Shown: positions 5,453 to 29,886 of the stretch, piece by piece
Layout of the letters: each line of letters opens with the position of its first letter
How positions within the stretch are numbered: position 1 is the first letter of the stretch
DNA from: Inmirania thermothiophila
GTDB lineage: Bacteria; Pseudomonadota; Gammaproteobacteria; DSM-100275
Length of the DNA: 64,000 nt
Reading direction: 5' to 3'
Assembly: GCF_003751635.1 (NCBI RefSeq)
Contig: NZ_RJVI01000001.1
Location: 846,726-910,725, forward strand
Program-made: the position numbers and the translations under genes
The notes under the pieces: model-generated
Databases searched by the model: none
Seen by the model: only the letters and a program-made list of their open reading frames with translations
Told to the model about the DNA's origin: nothing

Positions 5453-6520
5453 ATGGAACAGCTGATGCCCATCCTGGCCCCGGGTGCGGTGCCGGCGCAG
5501 CCCGCGGCCTCGCCCGCGCAGGCCGCGCCGGCGGTGGATTTCACGCGCCTGCTGGAGGCCGGCATGGCCCTGCTTGCGGGCGAGGCGCCGCCGCTTGCGG
5601 CCGCGCCGCAGGCGGCGGCGGACGGCAAGGCCTTGCCGCCCGAGGCGGCGGCGCGGCCGGCGACCGCCGGGCGGCCCGCGGTGGCGGGCGCGGTCCCGGC
5701 GGTTCCGGCGGACGGGGAGGCGGGCGCGGTGCAGGCCGCCGAGGACCGTGACGATGCGGGCGGGGCGTCGGATGCGCCGGTGCCGCCCCCGGCGCTGCCG
5801 GTGGTGCCGGATGCGCCCGCCGCCGGCGGCGCGGCGCCGGCGGCGGAGGAGGCCGCGGGGGCGGCGGCGCGGGCGCGGCCGCGGCCCGCGGAGGCGGCGC
5901 TGCCGACGCCGTCGGCTGCGGGCGAGACCGGCGGCGGCGAGGCCACGGCACGGGCCGCTGCGGTCATGGCCGCGGCGGGGGCCCCGGAGGCGGCCCCGGT
6001 GGCGGCCGGGGGGGCGAGGGGCGGCCGCGACGAGGCCGTCGCCGCGGCACCGCCTGCCTCCGCGCCGCCGCGGGACGGCCAGCCCGCCGCCCCGGAGGCC
6101 GCCGCCGCGCCGCGCGATCCGGCGCGGCCGGAGTTCGCCGACGCGCTCGCCGAGCGGGTCCAGTGGCTGGCCCGCGGCGGGCACGGCGCGGCGCGCATCC
6201 AGCTCGACCCGCCCCACCTCGGCCAGCTCGAGGTGCGGGTCTCGGTGCACAACGACCAGGTCCAGGTCCAGTTCCACGTCCAGCAGGGGGCGGCGGCGGA
6301 CGCCCTCCAGGCGGCCCTGCCGCGCCTGCGCGACCTGCTCGCCGCGCAGGGCATGGCGCTCGCCCACATGGGGGTGCAGCACCAGGGGCCCGGCCAGGAC
6401 GGCGGCGGCCACGCCCGTGACGGCGCCGGTGCCGGATCCGCCTGGGCCGAGCCGGACGCCCCCGCCGACGCCGCCGCACCCGTCCGCCGCGGCGACGGCC
6501 TCCTCGACGCCTACGCCTGA
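5453..6520 (+). CDS. fliK: FliK, hook-length control protein
   Basis: FliK is secreted during hook assembly, measures hook length and switches export specificity through FlhB. The 355-residue protein is a long low-complexity Ala/Pro/Gly region followed by a conserved C-terminal domain at about residues 225-310 (ARIQLDPPHLGQLEVRVSV, then LRDLLAAQGMAL), the flagellar hook-length domain. The low-complexity half fits its role as an extended ruler. It has its own sigma-54 promoter just upstream and is followed by a 163 bp gap before fliL. Confidence 0.9.
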   Translation: MEQLMPILAPGAVPAQPAASPAQAAPAVDFTRLLEAGMALLAGEAPPLAAAPQAAADGKALPPEAAARPATAGRPAVAGAVPAVPADGEAGAVQAAEDRDDAGGASDAPVPPPALPVVPDAPAAGGAAPAAEEAAGAAARARPRPAEAALPTPSAAGETGGGEATARAAAVMAAAGAPEAAPVAAGGARGGRDEAVAAAPPASAPPRDGQPAAPEAAAAPRDPARPEFADALAERVQWLARGGHGAARIQLDPPHLGQLEVRVSVHNDQVQVQFHVQQGAAADALQAALPRLRDLLAAQGMALAHMGVQHQGPGQDGGGHARDGAGAGSAWAEPDAPADAAAPVRRGDGLLDAYA

Positions 6521-6528
6521 CCCGCGCG

Positions 6529-6578
6529 CCGGCTTCCCGACGCGCTCGCCCGCTGGTGCGTCGGCGGGCCGGCGCATC
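6529..6578. other. imperfect inverted repeat in the fliK-fliL gap
   Basis: CCGACGC and GCGTCGG form a 7 bp stem, embedded in flanking GCCGGC and GGGCCGGC arms. It lies just after the fliK stop. There is no T-run, so it is not a textbook terminator, but it could slow or end transcription of fliK before the fliL promoter. Confidence 0.4.
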
Positions 6579-6637
6579 CGCCCGCGCCGCGTTTGCAACC
6601 TCCTGAGTCTTCGGGGCTAAATGGGAAGGCGCCGTGA

Positions 6638-6654
6638 TGGCACGGGGCTTGCTA
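6638..6654 (+). promoter_or_regulatory. sigma-54 promoter upstream of fliL
   Basis: TGGCACGGGGCTTGCTA matches the RpoN consensus in both elements, with GG and GC separated by exactly 10 bases. It lies 30 bp before the fliL ATG and would drive the long fliLMNOPQR-flhBA unit. This is the best match of the three sigma-54 sites in the window. Confidence 0.9.
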
Positions 6655-6683
6655 TCCCTTTGGGCAGGACGGAGGTGCGAACG

Positions 6684-7217
6684 ATGGCCGACGAGGACGA
6701 GCTCGAGCTCTCCAGCGACGAGGAGGGCGGAAAGAAGAAGGGGAAGAAGGGGGGGCGCAAGACCCTCTTCCTGATCCTCGGGGCGGTGGTGGTGGCGGCC
6801 GCCGCCGCGGGCGGGGGCGTCTGGTTCCTGACGCGCGGCGAGGCGCCGCCGGAGCCCCCGGCGCAGGCCGAGAGCGCGCCCGAGGCGCCGGCGCCCAAGC
6901 AGGCCTTCTACATGCCCCTCGACCCCCCCTTCGTGGTCAACGTGGGCGGCAGCAACAGCAACCGCTTCCTGCAGGTGACCATCGAGGTGATGGCCCGCGA
7001 CGAGAAGGTCTTCGACGACGTCAAGAAGCACATGCCGGCGATCCGCGACGCGCTGCTGCTGCTCTTCTCGAGCCAGGACATCGAGGCCCTGGGCACCATC
7101 GAGGGCAAGCAGAAGCTGCGCCAGGCGGTGCTGGCCGAGATCCAGCGCATCCTCCAGGAGGAGACGGGCAGCCCCGGCATCGAGCGGGTCTACTTCACCA
7201 GCTTCGTCACCCAGTAG
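6684..7217 (+). CDS. fliL: FliL, stator-associated flagellar protein
   Basis: FliL is a single-pass inner-membrane protein with a periplasmic stomatin-like domain that forms a ring around the stator. The chosen ATG follows GGAGGTGCGAAC, giving 177 residues; an upstream ATG at 6621 lies before the sigma-54 promoter and is rejected. The N-terminus has a run of Lys/Gly (KKKGKKGG), then a membrane helix near residues 30-50, then the conserved YMPLDPPFVVNV and a C-terminal region ending VYFTSFVTQ. fliM starts 4 bp later. Confidence 0.95.
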   Translation: MADEDELELSSDEEGGKKKGKKGGRKTLFLILGAVVVAAAAAGGGVWFLTRGEAPPEPPAQAESAPEAPAPKQAFYMPLDPPFVVNVGGSNSNRFLQVTIEVMARDEKVFDDVKKHMPAIRDALLLLFSSQDIEALGTIEGKQKLRQAVLAEIQRILQEETGSPGIERVYFTSFVTQ

Positions 7218-7221
7218 CGCC

Positions 7222-8226
7222 ATGTCGGTCAACGACCTCCTCTCCCAGGAAGAGATCGACGCCCTCCTCGCCGGGGTGAGCGAGGGCGAGGTGCCGGCCG
7301 GCGAGGGCACACCGCCGGCGGAGGGCGAGGTCCGCCCCTACGACTTCACCAGCCAGGACCGCATCGTGCGCGGCCGCCTGCCGGGGCTCGACGTGGTCAA
7401 CGAGCGGCTGGCGCGGCACCTGCGCGGCAGCCTCTCGGCGCTGCTGCGCCGCCCGGTGGAGGTCAAGGCCGAGCCGGTGCAGACCCTCAAGTTCGGCGAG
7501 TACGCGCACAGCCTCTACGTGCCGAGCAGCATCAACCTGCTCGAGATCCAGCCCCTGCACGGCACGGCGATGCTGGTGCTCGATCCGAAGCTGGTCTACG
7601 TGGTGGTGGACCACTTCTTCGGCGGCGGCGGCCGCTTCGGGCCGCGCATCGAGGGGCGGGAGTTCACGGCCACGGAGCGGCGCGTGATCCAGCGCCTGGT
7701 GGACGCCGCGCTCGCCGACCTGGCGCGGGCCTGGGAGCCGGTGCTTCCGCTGCGGGTGACGCTGGCGGGCACGGAGATCAACCCGCATCTTGCGAACATC
7801 GCCATCCCCGCCGAGGTGGTGGTGGTGAGCGCCTTCCGGGTGGAGCTCGAGGGCGGGGGCGGCGGCGCCCTCCACGTGACCTTCCCCTACGCCATGCTGG
7901 AGCCGGTGCGCGAGCACCTCGACAGCGGCGTGCAGAGCGACCGCATCGAGGTGGACGAGGGCTGGGCCGAGGCCCTGCGCGAGCAGACCAAGGCGGCGCG
8001 GGTGGAGCTCGTGGGGGTGCTGGCGCAGACCGAGATCGCCCTGCGCGACGTCCTCGCCATGAAGCCCGGCGACGTCATCCCCCTCGACCCGCCGGAGCTG
8101 GTGACGCTGCACGTGGAGGGGATCCCGATGTTTCTCGGACGCTTCGGCAGCCACGAGGGCGCCAACGCCGTGCGCATCGAGCGCGTGGTGCGCCGGCCCC
8201 GCGCTGCCGGGGGAGGTGGGGCATGA
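7222..8226 (+). CDS. fliM: FliM, flagellar motor switch protein
   Basis: FliM forms most of the C ring and binds phosphorylated CheY at its N-terminus. The CheY-binding motif LSQEEIDALLAG is intact at residues 7-18. The middle domain has the GGGGR signature for FliG interaction near residues 133-137, and the C-terminus is a SpoA-like domain. Intact CheY binding is worth noting because the neighbouring CheY is altered. The gene overlaps fliN by 4 bp (ATGA). Confidence 0.97.
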   Translation: MSVNDLLSQEEIDALLAGVSEGEVPAGEGTPPAEGEVRPYDFTSQDRIVRGRLPGLDVVNERLARHLRGSLSALLRRPVEVKAEPVQTLKFGEYAHSLYVPSSINLLEIQPLHGTAMLVLDPKLVYVVVDHFFGGGGRFGPRIEGREFTATERRVIQRLVDAALADLARAWEPVLPLRVTLAGTEINPHLANIAIPAEVVVVSAFRVELEGGGGGALHVTFPYAMLEPVREHLDSGVQSDRIEVDEGWAEALREQTKAARVELVGVLAQTEIALRDVLAMKPGDVIPLDPPELVTLHVEGIPMFLGRFGSHEGANAVRIERVVRRPRAAGGGGA

Positions 8227-23132: not shown

Positions 23133-24149
23133 TCACCGCGCGTGCAGCTCGACCACGTCGCCGTCGGCGACGAGGTGGTCCGGGCCCACCTGCTGCCCGT
23201 CGAACTGGGCGCTGCCCCAGATGCGGGCGTAGCGCAGCCGCTCGGCGAGCTCCTTGTGGACGAGGCGGGCGACGTCGCGCACGGTGTCGCCGCGGCGCAC
23301 GGTGAAGGGGTGGTCGCGGTCGGGCTCGCGCCCCGGGGCCTTGGTGTAGACCCGCACGACCCCGAGGCCGCGGAAGAGGAACGGGGCGATGCGGGCGAGG
23401 CCGTCGCCGCGCTCGGCGGAGACCGCAAGGGCCGGAAGCTGCAGGGCGGCGAGCTCCTCGAGCACCGCGACGTCGGCCTCGGGATCGGTGCTGCGGTCGG
23501 CCTTGTTGGCGACGAGCAGGGTCGGCAGGCGCAGGCGGAAGACGTCCTCCTCCGCCTCCTCCTCCCCGTCCAGACCCGGCCAGCGGCCGCTCAGGGTGAT
23601 GCGCCGCCCGGCCAGTTGCGCCACCACCGCCTGGGCCTGCTCCGGCGCCTCGGGATCGGCGAGGTCGAGCACCAGCAGCGCGGCGTCGGCGTTCTGCAGG
23701 GCCGAGGGCAGCCAGGGCGGCGTGTGTTCGGCGGCCACCGGGGGCAGGTCCACGATCTGGAAGTGGATGTCCTCGAAGGGGAGCATCCCGGGCAGGGGCA
23801 TCTGCGTGGTGAAGGGGAAGGGGCCGGCCTCGGCGTGCGAGCCGGTCAGGCGGGCGTGCAGGGTGGACTTGCCGCCGTTGGGCGGGCCGAGGAGGGCCAC
23901 CTGGGCCGCGCCCTCGGGGCGGACGGAGTAGGACGGGCCGCCCCGCCGCGGGCCCCGGCGCCCGGCCTCCAGCTCCTCGGTCAGCTCCCGGATGCGCGAC
24001 TTGATGTCGGCCTGCAGGTGCTCGGTGCCCTTGTGCTTGGGGATGGTCCGGAGCATCTCGCGCAGCGCCTCCAGGCGCTCGCGCGGGCCGCGCGCGCGGC
24101 GGTAGGCCTCCTCGGCGCGCTTGTACTCGGGGGTGAGGTTGGCCGGCAT
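23133..24149 (-). CDS. TGS-domain GTPase (DRG/Obg-like)
   Basis: A 338-residue GTPase of the bacterial DRG-like group. The N-terminus is a helical region of charged residues (1-80). The G domain has the P-loop GPPNGGKST near residues 89-97, a G3-like DLPP, NKAD (G4) and SAERGD (G5). The C-terminal TGS domain (VRVYTKAPG through VELHAR) resembles those of RelA and ThrRS and suggests binding to RNA or ribosomes. It is divergent from the Clp1-like/RNase Z-like fusion gene, with only 67 bp between the starts, so the two may share control. Confidence 0.9.
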   Translation of the reverse strand: MPANLTPEYKRAEEAYRRARGPRERLEALREMLRTIPKHKGTEHLQADIKSRIRELTEELEAGRRGPRRGGPSYSVRPEGAAQVALLGPPNGGKSTLHARLTGSHAEAGPFPFTTQMPLPGMLPFEDIHFQIVDLPPVAAEHTPPWLPSALQNADAALLVLDLADPEAPEQAQAVVAQLAGRRITLSGRWPGLDGEEEAEEDVFRLRLPTLLVANKADRSTDPEADVAVLEELAALQLPALAVSAERGDGLARIAPFLFRGLGVVRVYTKAPGREPDRDHPFTVRRGDTVRDVARLVHKELAERLRYARIWGSAQFDGQQVGPDHLVADGDVVELHAR

Positions 24150-24216
24150 CGCGGGCGATGATAGCGCGGTGGACGGCGGGCGCGGTCGGTGCGAGGCTGC
24201 GCCGGGGAGGCGGCCG

Positions 24217-26118
24217 ATGGCGGGGCGCGATCATCCGTGGGATCCGGCGGGGCTGGCGGCGGTGGCGGCCGGCGGGGCGGTCCTCGTCGGCGGGCCGCCG
24301 GGGTGCGGCAAGTCGACCCTGGTGGCGGCTCTCGCCGACGCCCTGGGCGGCGCCCGTGCCCTCGGGCTCGACCCCGGCAACCCGGCCTTCGGGCCGCCGG
24401 GCGCGCTGGCGCTGGCGCGCCGGAGCGCGGGGCGCTGGCGGCTCGAGCGCATCGCCGCCCTCTGCACGCTGGATGCGGCGCGCTTCCGCCTGCCGCTGGC
24501 GGAGGCGGCGCGCAGCCTGCGGCCGGAGGAAGCGGGCCCCCTGCTGGTGGACCTGCCGGGCCTCGTGCGGGGGGTCGCCGCGGCGGAGCTCCTGGACGCG
24601 GCGGTGCGGCTGCTCGGGGTCGCGGCCGTGATCTGGGTCGGTGAGGCGGCCGGGCTCGGGGCGGAGCTGGACGCCCTCGGGGTGCCCCTGTGGCGGGTGG
24701 CGGCGCCGCCGGGGGCGCACCGGGCGCCGCCCGCCGAGCGGGCGCGGCGCCGGACGGCGCGCTGGGCGCGCTGGCTTGCGGGGGCGGCGGCGCGCACCCT
24801 GCCGTGGGCGGGGCTTCGCGCCGTGGGCACCCCGCCGCCCCTGGGCCCGGCGTGGCGGGGGCTGCAGATCGGCTTCCTCGCCGACGGTGCCACCGTGGGG
24901 CTCGGCGAGGTGGAGGCGGCGGATGCGGAGGGGCTGCGTGTGCGGGTGGCGGGGCGCACGAGCCCCACCGCCCTCGTCCGCGACGCCGCGCGGGCACCGG
25001 ACGGGCTGCTTCGCACGCGGGCGCGGGCGCGCGCCGCGGCGGTGGCGGCGGCGGCGCCGGACCTGCGCCCGGGGCGGTCGGCGGCGGTGCCGGGCCCGGC
25101 GTTCCGGGTGGGGGCGCTGGATGCGCTGCTGGTCAACGGGGTCTTCGGCGATCCCCTCCTGCACGCGCGGCTGCGCCACCGCCGGCGCAGCCTGCTCTTC
25201 GACCTCGGCGACGGGGCGCGCCTTCCGGCGCGGATCGCCCATCAGGTCACCGACGTCTTCGTCAGCCACGCCCACCTCGACCACATCGCGGGTCTTCTAT
25301 GGCTGCTGCGGGCGCGCATGGGCGAGGCCGGGGTCTGCCGCCTGTACGGTCCGGCGGGGGTGGCCGGACACGTGGCGGCGCAGCTCGCCGCGGTGCTGTG
25401 GGACCGCATCGGCGAGGGCGGCCCGCGCTTCGAGGTCCTGGAGCTCGCGGAGGGGAGGCTGCGGCGCTTCGCCCTGCGCGCCGGGGGCGGCGGGCCGCGC
25501 CTCATCGGCGAGGCGCCGCGGCCCGACGGCGTGGTTCTGGAGGAGGCGGGTCTGCGCGTGCGCGCGGCGGTGCTGGATCACGGCACGCCGGTGCTGGCCT
25601 ACGCCTTCGAGCCGGCGCGGGAGGTGCACGTGCGCCGGGACCGCCTCGCCGCGAGCGGCCTGGCGCCCGGGCCGTGGCTGACGGAGCTCAAGCAGGCGGT
25701 GCTGGCGGGGCGGCGCGGGGCCGTCATCGCGCTGCCGGGGGGCGGGGTGCGCAGCGCCGGGGAGCTGGCGCGCGAGCTGCTGCTGGAGGGGCCGCCGCGG
25801 CGGCTCGTCTATGCCACCGACCTCGCCGACACGGCGTCGAACCGGGCGCGGCTGGTGGCGCTCGCGCAGGGCGCGCACACCCTGGTCTGCGAGGCCGCCT
25901 TCCTCGAGGCCGACCGCGCCCAGGCCGAGGCCACCGGTCACCTCACCGCCCGCGCCTGCGGCGAGATCGCGGCCGCCGCGGCGGTGGCGCGGCTGCTGCC
26001 CTTCCACTTCTCGCGCCGCTACGAGGATCGGCCGGAGGCGGTCTACGACGAGGTGCGGGCGGCCTTCGCCGGGGAGGTGCTGGCGACGAGCGCCGCGGTT
26101 CAGGCGGCGGGCTCCTGA
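24217..26118 (+). CDS. Clp1-like polynucleotide kinase fused to RNase Z-like MBL domain
   Basis: A 633-residue two-domain protein. The N-terminal part resembles the Clp1/Grc3/NOL9 kinases: P-loop GGPPGCGKST at residues 25-34, then LGLDPGNPAFGPPG (like the DxDxGQ..PPG motif) and LLVDLPGLVRG (like the NTPGWVxG motif). The C-terminal half, from about residue 290, is an RNase Z-type metallo-beta-lactamase: LLFDLGDGARL, HAHLDH at 351-356, VLDHGTPVLAYAF, YATDLADT, ATGHLTA, and HFSRRY with His597. Clp1 proteins phosphorylate RNA 5'-OH ends and RNase Z cuts tRNA 3' trailers, so an RNA end-processing enzyme is inferred. The ATG at 24217 follows CGGGGAGGCGG. The 3' end overlaps the convergent marR gene by 19 bp. 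Confidence 0.85.
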   Translation: MAGRDHPWDPAGLAAVAAGGAVLVGGPPGCGKSTLVAALADALGGARALGLDPGNPAFGPPGALALARRSAGRWRLERIAALCTLDAARFRLPLAEAARSLRPEEAGPLLVDLPGLVRGVAAAELLDAAVRLLGVAAVIWVGEAAGLGAELDALGVPLWRVAAPPGAHRAPPAERARRRTARWARWLAGAAARTLPWAGLRAVGTPPPLGPAWRGLQIGFLADGATVGLGEVEAADAEGLRVRVAGRTSPTALVRDAARAPDGLLRTRARARAAAVAAAAPDLRPGRSAAVPGPAFRVGALDALLVNGVFGDPLLHARLRHRRRSLLFDLGDGARLPARIAHQVTDVFVSHAHLDHIAGLLWLLRARMGEAGVCRLYGPAGVAGHVAAQLAAVLWDRIGEGGPRFEVLELAEGRLRRFALRAGGGGPRLIGEAPRPDGVVLEEAGLRVRAAVLDHGTPVLAYAFEPAREVHVRRDRLAASGLAPGPWLTELKQAVLAGRRGAVIALPGGGVRSAGELARELLLEGPPRRLVYATDLADTASNRARLVALAQGAHTLVCEAAFLEADRAQAEATGHLTARACGEIAAAAAVARLLPFHFSRRYEDRPEAVYDEVRAAFAGEVLATSAAVQAAGS

Positions 26119-28938: not shown

Positions 28939-29886
28939 ATGAGCGGTGTCTGCGTCTACTACGGCGAGGCCCTGGGGCGCTACGGCTTCGGCGAGGGTCA
29001 CCCCTTCGATCCGCGGCGCCTCGCCGACTTCTGGGCCCACTTCACGGCCGAGGGGCTCGATCGGGAGGTCACCGTGTGCGAGCCCGCGACGGCCCCGCGC
29101 GAGGCCATCGAGCGCTTCCACACGCCGGCCTACGTGGCGCGGGTCATGGAGCAGTCCCGCACCGGCCAGGGCTACCTGGACTACGGCGACACCCCGGCCT
29201 ACCGCGGCGTCTACGAGGCCGCGGCGACGGTGGTGGGCACCGTGCTCGACGCCGTCGAGCGGCTGATGGCGGGGCGCTGCCGGCGGGCCTTCGTGCCCAT
29301 CGCGGGGCTGCACCACGCCCGCCGCGCCACGGCCGGCGGCTTCTGCGTCTTCAACGACATCGGCGTCGCCATCGAGACGCTGCGCGCGCAGCACGGGCTG
29401 CGCCGCATCGCCTACGTGGACATCGACGCCCACCACGGCGACGGCGTCTTCTACAGCTACGACGACGACCCGGACCTGCTCTTCGCCGACTTCCACGAGG
29501 ACGGCCGCTACCTCTACCCCGGCACGGGGGCGGCGAGCGAGGACGGGCGGGGGCCCGCGCGCGGCACCAAGATCAACGTCCCCTTGCCGCCCGGGGCCGA
29601 CGACGAGGCCTTCCTCGCGGCGTGGCCGCGGGTGGAGGCCTATCTGGATGCCGGGCGGCCCGAGTTCGTGATCCTGCAGTGCGGGGCCGACAGCATCGCC
29701 GGCGACCCTCTCACCCACCTCGCCTACAGCCCGGCGGTGCACCGCCACGTCGCCGCCCGCCTGGCGCGGCTCGCCGACCGGCACTGCCAAGGGCGGCTGC
29801 TCGCCCTCGGCGGGGGCGGCTACGATCACCGCAACCTCGCCCGCGCCTGGACCGAGGTCGTGCGCGGTCTGCTCGAGCCCGGCTGA
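28939..29886 (+). CDS. HDAC-like (AcuC/acetylpolyamine amidohydrolase) deacetylase
   Basis: A 315-residue zinc deacetylase of the class I HDAC fold. The active-site patterns are visible: GLHHARRATAGGFCVFNDIGVA, the zinc ligands in YVDIDAHHGDGV, and LALGGGGYDHRNLARAW. Relatives act on acetylated lysines, acetylpolyamines or in acetoin/acetyl-CoA synthetase control. The neighbour is an acetate CoA-transferase, so a role in acetyl metabolism is possible. The ATG follows GGGAGGGCGCGTC. Confidence 0.92.
   Translation: MSGVCVYYGEALGRYGFGEGHPFDPRRLADFWAHFTAEGLDREVTVCEPATAPREAIERFHTPAYVARVMEQSRTGQGYLDYGDTPAYRGVYEAAATVVGTVLDAVERLMAGRCRRAFVPIAGLHHARRATAGGFCVFNDIGVAIETLRAQHGLRRIAYVDIDAHHGDGVFYSYDDDPDLLFADFHEDGRYLYPGTGAASEDGRGPARGTKINVPLPPGADDEAFLAAWPRVEAYLDAGRPEFVILQCGADSIAGDPLTHLAYSPAVHRHVAARLARLADRHCQGRLLALGGGGYDHRNLARAWTEVVRGLLEPG

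Follow-up and report, generated by a model that had tools for sequence, protein, structure and literature searches.

The protein encoded at positions 24217 to 26118 of the window (the whole stretch of 64,000 nucleotides that was analysed) joins a Clp1-like polynucleotide kinase to an RNase Z-like nuclease domain in a single chain of 633 residues. Judged by its sequence and by a predicted structure, the fusion is probably a bifunctional RNA end-processing enzyme. That the two activities, kinase and nuclease, are present as a pair is very probable, a tRNA-like substrate is likely, and a role in repair or quality control is put forward only tentatively. The bifunctional reading is supported by the folds and profiles of both halves, their conserved active sites, a kept exosite arm and the occurrence of the fusion across phyla. 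It is further supported by a second association of the two genes elsewhere, their co-occurrence, the position of the fusion as the sole RNase Z-like gene and the presence of an Rnl3-type ligase.

Identity and conservation of the two halves

The gene and its motifs are laid out in the window as follows.

24204-24210 (+): GGGGAGG, Shine-Dalgarno-like, 6 nt upstream of the fusion ATG; read directly
24217-26118 (+): coding sequence of the 633-residue Clp1-like kinase/RNase Z-like fusion; ATG start, stop-free translation, 34 aligned full-length fusions
24229-25005 (+): Clp1/Grc3 kinase fold, residues 5-263 (P-loop domain and C-terminal beta domain); fold match, CLP1_P
24289-24318 (+): Walker A GGPPGCGKST, residues 25-34; Lys32 in 33 of 34
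24367-24402 (+): LDPGNPAFGPPG, DPGxPxFGxPG motif, residues 51-62; like DPGQPEFSPPG of fungal Grc3
24541-24573 (+): Walker B/clasp-like LLVDLPGLVRG, residues 109-119; P114, G115 and R118 invariant
24739-24765 (+): Arg-rich lid-like helix, residues 175-183 (R175, R179 and W183, invariant or nearly so); hhalign alignment with lone Clp1 proteins
25030-25086 (+): disordered linker, residues 272-290; pLDDT < 50
25117-26088 (+): RNase Z-like metallo-beta-lactamase (MBL) domain, residues 301-624; PRK02126 profile, fold match to 4gcw
25267-25284 (+): HAHLDH metal-binding motif, residues 351-356; invariant, 34 of 34
25579-25581 (+): His455, metal ligand position; invariant, aligned to RNase Z
25618-25695 (+): RNase Z exosite-like arm, residues 468-493 (RDRL..GL.PGPW..ELK); aligned to B. 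subtilis and E. coli RNase Z and human ELAC1, present in 33 of 34
25819-25821 (+): Asp535, bridging metal ligand position; invariant
26005-26007 (+): His597 (in HFSRRY), last metal ligand position; invariant

The N-terminal half matched the Pfam family CLP1_P (2.8e-10; 40.8 bits versus a cut-off of 26.6), and the C-terminal half matched Lactamase_B_2 (2.9e-15) and PRK02126, a "ribonuclease Z" subfamily of NCBIfam (2.7e-86 and 9.1e-86). Both CLP1_P and Lactamase_B_2 were matched by all 34 aligned fusions. An AlphaFold2 model built from these 34 sequences had a mean pLDDT of 87 and a pTM of 0.55, and this modest pTM suggests that the placement of the domains relative to each other is not fixed. 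Residues 5-263 of the model matched Clp1 of C. elegans (4ohy; VIA Z 26.4, 255 residues, rmsd 2.8), human CLP1 as solved within the TSEN complex (8hmy; Z 26.2), and Grc3 (8puw; Z 21.2), and residues 301-624 matched the RNase Z of B. subtilis with pre-tRNA (4gcw; VIA Z 26.0). No P-loop family fitted the N-terminal half better than Clp1/Grc3, either in profiles or in the fold of the predicted model. The evidence for the domain identity of both halves is strong, and the initial annotation, which had recognized a Clp1-like kinase and an RNase Z-like nuclease, was right about both. The motifs that it had placed (Walker A, LDPGNPAFGPPG, LLVDLPGLVRG, HAHLDH and His597) are found at those residues in the translation. 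Since the PxKxRN loop is absent and the scores lie under the equivalog cut-offs, the most fitting description of the C-terminal half is that of a PRK02126-related domain that is RNase Z-like; it scored 287.9 bits with NF002558 (PRK02126), just under the cut-off of 315, and 101.1 bits with the RNase Z equivalog TIGR02651, under the cut-off of 292.95.

Active-site conservation was followed in a set of 34 sequences, comprising this protein and 33 full-length fusions that are 44 to 55% identical to it. The seven metal ligands were invariant. In the kinase half, the Walker A lysine (Lys32) was retained in 33 of the 34, the exception being L035, and D112 of Walker B was conserved at 97%. R175 and R179 were also conserved among the fusions, and their helix, a putative lid, could be aligned with lone Clp1 proteins, though not residue by residue with a solved Clp1; the position of the clasp TxGW reads xPG(V/L) in the fusions. 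The clasp TxGW and the Arg lid follow motif definitions reportedly given by Dikfidan in 2014. The C-terminal half had been credited with a full RNase Z motif set, which holds for the metal ligands and for the exosite arm (kept in 33 of 34 fusions) but not for two other elements. The PxKxRN loop, which in RNase Z is linked to CCA reading, is absent, with NGVFGDPLLHxRL in its place, and the HEAT of RNase Z reads CEA, so that its His is replaced by Cys. The mean pairwise identity was 44% in the kinase half versus 57% in the nuclease half. In L035 (match 6001-7833), Walker A reads GSPGSDRCT and the Walker B aspartate is lost, with the nuclease motifs intact. L042 (match 6001-7608, Myxococcota) is a fusion that lacks the exosite arm region.

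Distribution and history of the fusion

A single scan of genome contigs yielded 47 relatives, 33 of which were aligned with this protein as full-length fusions; the aligned set covers Gammaproteobacteria, Nitrosomonas, Desulfobacterota, Myxococcota and Nitrospinota. Among 276 genomes sampled from the same class, the full fusion was present in 9 and a PRK02126-type nuclease on its own in about 14, with a few more cut by contig ends. In a phylum sample of 397 genomes the fusion was present in 4, including G372, where it lies in two contig pieces; one of the 4 belongs to another class. A chance join or misassembly was rejected because the junction is spanned by homologues. An origin from phages or plasmids was also rejected, since no viral or phage relative was found and the plasmid relatives are lone MBL proteins only. 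None of the fusion genomes checked contained a canonical RNase Z, but mutual exclusion of the two carries no weight, since canonical RNase Z (> 250 bits) is rare in the class (9 of 276).

In a tree of the nuclease half, lone nucleases of Marinobacter are nested among the fusions, where L035 is their sister (98/94), and no kinase lies within 6 kb of the nuclease in Marinobacter. Because of this position, the kinase has evidently decayed and was then lost in the L035/Marinobacter lineage. In L038 (Pontibacterium), the kinase frame gives way to the nuclease frame at a run of C around position 6905, where stop and start overlap in TCATGA. Since L038 is sister to the fusion L026 in the same tree, these overlapping frames would represent a recent split or a frameshift, or else an assembly error.

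Other lone nucleases form a deep clade of their own, to which the nuclease of G153 belongs; the latter passes the NF002558 cut-off with 463.6 bits. In G153, a gap of 79 bp separates the end of a canonical Clp1 gene from the nuclease gene that follows it on the same strand. The G153 kinase carries DADVGQKDIGPP where the fusions have ADPGSPAFGxPG (like fungal Grc3), and the fusion kinases aligned with the lone Clp1 group over 257 columns (hhalign, 1.1e-14). By its sequence, the G153 kinase would be a distant lineage and its adjacency to the nuclease a second kinase-nuclease association. In the class sample, lone Clp1 kinases were found in genomes with a lone PRK02126-type nuclease in 3 of 3 cases, and such nucleases occur in 14 of the 264 non-fusion genomes; this co-occurrence has a p value of 1.2e-4, or 0.003 when genera are counted, with n = 3 and two of these genomes in one genus. 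The fusion clade and this separate pairing of lone genes taken together, kinase and nuclease appear to have been linked at least twice, as judged from a small sample.

Within 6 kb of the fusion, no convincing conserved neighbours were found; recurrent neighbour clusters were rejected as antisense artefacts of the fusion or as Marinobacter synteny. In the window, the divergent neighbour at 23133-24149 (-) is a GTPase with a C-terminal TGS domain, Obg/YchF-like, which reaches the cut-off of none of the listed NCBIfam models, and a protein with a histone deacetylase fold is encoded at 28939-29886 (+; 6.6e-80).

Candidate roles in RNA end processing

A profile search of this genome revealed no other RNase Z-like gene above background, so that the fusion is the only candidate for an rnz; the next-best matches were a phosphodiesterase-like MBL protein of 268 aa and a further MBL protein that matched over a short stretch. 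No member of the CLP1_N family was found in this genome. RtcB is encoded, as is an Rnl3-type ATP-dependent RNA ligase (TIGR01209, 265.7 bits), which is adjoined on the opposite strand by a PIN_5/RNA-ligase-partner protein (TIGR03875, 222.7 bits).

L151 1282-2385 (+) and 2394-3017 (-), on C1 near 514810: Rnl3-type ligase and putative HARP-family gene

The TIGR03875 family is taken as HARP, the protein-only RNase P, because HARP is a PIN_5 member and has been reported beside Rnl3, a pair that is restricted in bacteria (PMC12153264). An archaeal relative of Rnl3 is described as belonging to the class that joins 5'-phosphate and 3'-OH ends (PMC5599603).

In the likeliest scheme, the two halves would act together, one at each end, on tRNAs that are damaged or misprocessed or on fragments of tRNAs, and convert them to RNA with a 5'-phosphate and a 3'-OH. 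The N-terminal half would act as an ATP-dependent kinase of the Clp1/Grc3 type that phosphorylates 5'-OH ends of RNA; a lone bacterial Clp1, that of Thermus scotoductus, is a proven RNA kinase, as assayed in a 2019 survey (PMC6777427). The C-terminal half would act as an RNase Z-type zinc endonuclease that holds tRNA-like RNA via the exosite arm and cuts on the 3' side of the acceptor stem to leave a 3'-OH. RNA with such ends would be a suitable substrate for the addition of CCA, for ATP-dependent ligation or for decay that depends on a 5'-phosphate. Cleavage by RNase Z yields a tRNA with a 3'-OH and a trailer with a 5'-phosphate (PMC9181182), and therefore the nuclease would not feed the kinase, whose substrate would be 5'-OH RNA from other cuts. 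The 5'-phosphate set by the kinase may license the fused nuclease, which we propose because human ELAC2 contacts the 5'-phosphate of the tRNA (PMC11649783). The more specific idea of a tRNA repair or surveillance enzyme, in which the 5'-OH kinase licenses the 3' cut of the same tRNA together with the HARP and the Rnl3 ligase of this genome, is speculative and rather unlikely. Some observations count against the bifunctional reading itself: the 5'-phosphate that RNase Z cleavage leaves, which makes its product no substrate for the kinase, the missing PxKxRN, the CEA in place of HEAT, the unconserved gene neighbourhood and RtcB, which requires 5'-OH ends and would be antagonised by the kinase. 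Furthermore, the decayed kinase of L035 and the kinase-free nucleases of Marinobacter indicate that the halves are separable.

In this genome, CCA is encoded in 41 of 43 tRNA genes, the exceptions being a CAU tRNA (L069 1501-1573), which looks like tRNA-Ile2, and tRNA-Leu(UAA) (L099 220-301). In other fusion genomes, CCA was present in 25/25 (G281) and 22/23 (G279) sampled tRNA genes and in every tRNA gene checked of G276, where coordinate lists were compared by hand and one tRNA without a pattern match had CCA in its sequence. This near-universal encoding means that routine 3' maturation is needed for at most a few tRNAs; it argues against bulk 3' maturation as the main job of the fusion, and routine 3' maturation does not explain the attached kinase. 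The fusion could still be an ordinary RNase Z with an added module, in which the Clp1 half only binds ATP or RNA and positions the tRNA and the job is the 3' maturation of the few CCA-less tRNAs. The dead N-terminal half of long RNase Z offers a parallel, the gene is the sole RNase Z-like one, two tRNA genes here and one in G279 lack CCA, and the kinase half evolves faster (44% versus 57% identity) and has decayed or disappeared in some lineages. However, the catalytic motifs of the kinase are near-invariant in 33 of 34 fusions, which a module for binding only would not need, and the fusion is kept although all checked tRNA genes of G281 and G276 encode CCA. We consider this explanation decidedly unlikely.

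Human ELAC1 is reported to repair tRNAs that were cut during ribosome quality control. This report, the Rnl3-type ligase in the genome and the plausibility of MBL phosphodiesterases as cyclic-phosphate hydrolases would all fit a healing of both RNA ends, in which the kinase adds the 5'-phosphate, the MBL half opens 2',3'-cyclic phosphates and a ligase for 5'-phosphate and 3'-OH ends reseals the cut RNA, much as T4 Pnkp or fungal Trl1 do. We nevertheless regard it as unlikely, since the MBL half retains the tRNA exosite arm typical of the endonuclease and cyclic-phosphate ends are already used by RtcB in the same genome. Equally unlikely is a Grc3-Las1-like decay, in which phosphorylated 5'-OH fragments would pass to 5'-phosphate-sensing nucleases and the MBL half would trim pieces that resemble tRNA; the DPGxPxF motif resembles that of Grc3, and the known Grc3 has a nuclease as its partner (6of2, 8puw), but a partner exonuclease was not found in the neighbourhood. 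Finally, RNase Z was reported in 2025 to have a conserved deAMPylase function that acts on SelO-modified proteins (PMC12663964), and this report and the missing PxKxRN would allow an action of the MBL half on a non-RNA substrate, for example, the removal of AMP from proteins. Both the retained exosite arm and the presence of an RNA kinase in the same chain suggest RNA as the substrate instead and make such an action very improbable.

Relation to known systems

In the open-access full texts that the search covered, no published description of the fusion was found. The passages of the main text of the 2019 Clp1 survey that were consulted do not mention a kinase-RNase Z fusion; the survey gives a length of 333 ± 74 aa for bacterial Clp1 and places Clp1-type kinases in under 1% of bacteria (PMC6777427). 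These kinases are not known to have a role in bacteria. The fusion, conserved across phyla, ties a Clp1-type kinase to RNase Z chemistry and may be an enzyme for the repair or quality control of tRNA, so that a single purified protein would suffice to test the question. It recalls the eukaryotic complexes in which Clp1 or Grc3 is paired with an RNA endonuclease (TSEN, CPSF73, Las1).

With the Clp1/Grc3/Nol9 kinases and the Clp1 of Thermus scotoductus, the protein shares the fold (residues 5-263), Walker A, the DPGxPxF..PG motif, Walker B, a putative Arg-rich lid and the C-terminal beta domain; it differs from Clp1/Grc3/Nol9 in the added nuclease and at the clasp position, which reads xPG(V/L) instead of TxGW. 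With the short RNase Z enzymes (B. subtilis rnz, E. coli RNase BN, ELAC1), it shares the fold, the seven metal ligands and an exosite-like arm, and their HST is matched by HLT. In contrast to these enzymes, it lacks PxKxRN, has CEA for HEAT, carries an N-terminal kinase and reaches 101 bits where the equivalog cut-off is 293. The nearest named family of the C-terminal half is PRK02126 (NF002558), whose model has 345 positions and no kinase; in its lone member in G153, a VNxPFGDAGL loop replaces PxKxRN and is similar to the loop of the fusion. In long RNase Z (ELAC2, Trz1), the RNase Z core is likewise preceded by an additional domain, but this domain is a dead copy of the MBL, whereas that of the fusion is an apparently intact kinase. 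The idea of a 5'-kinase joined to 3'-end chemistry has work-alikes in Pnkp1-Rnl-Hen1, T4 Pnkp and fungal Trl1, but the kinase and 3' domains of these systems are unrelated to those described here, and the fusion contains no ligase domain.
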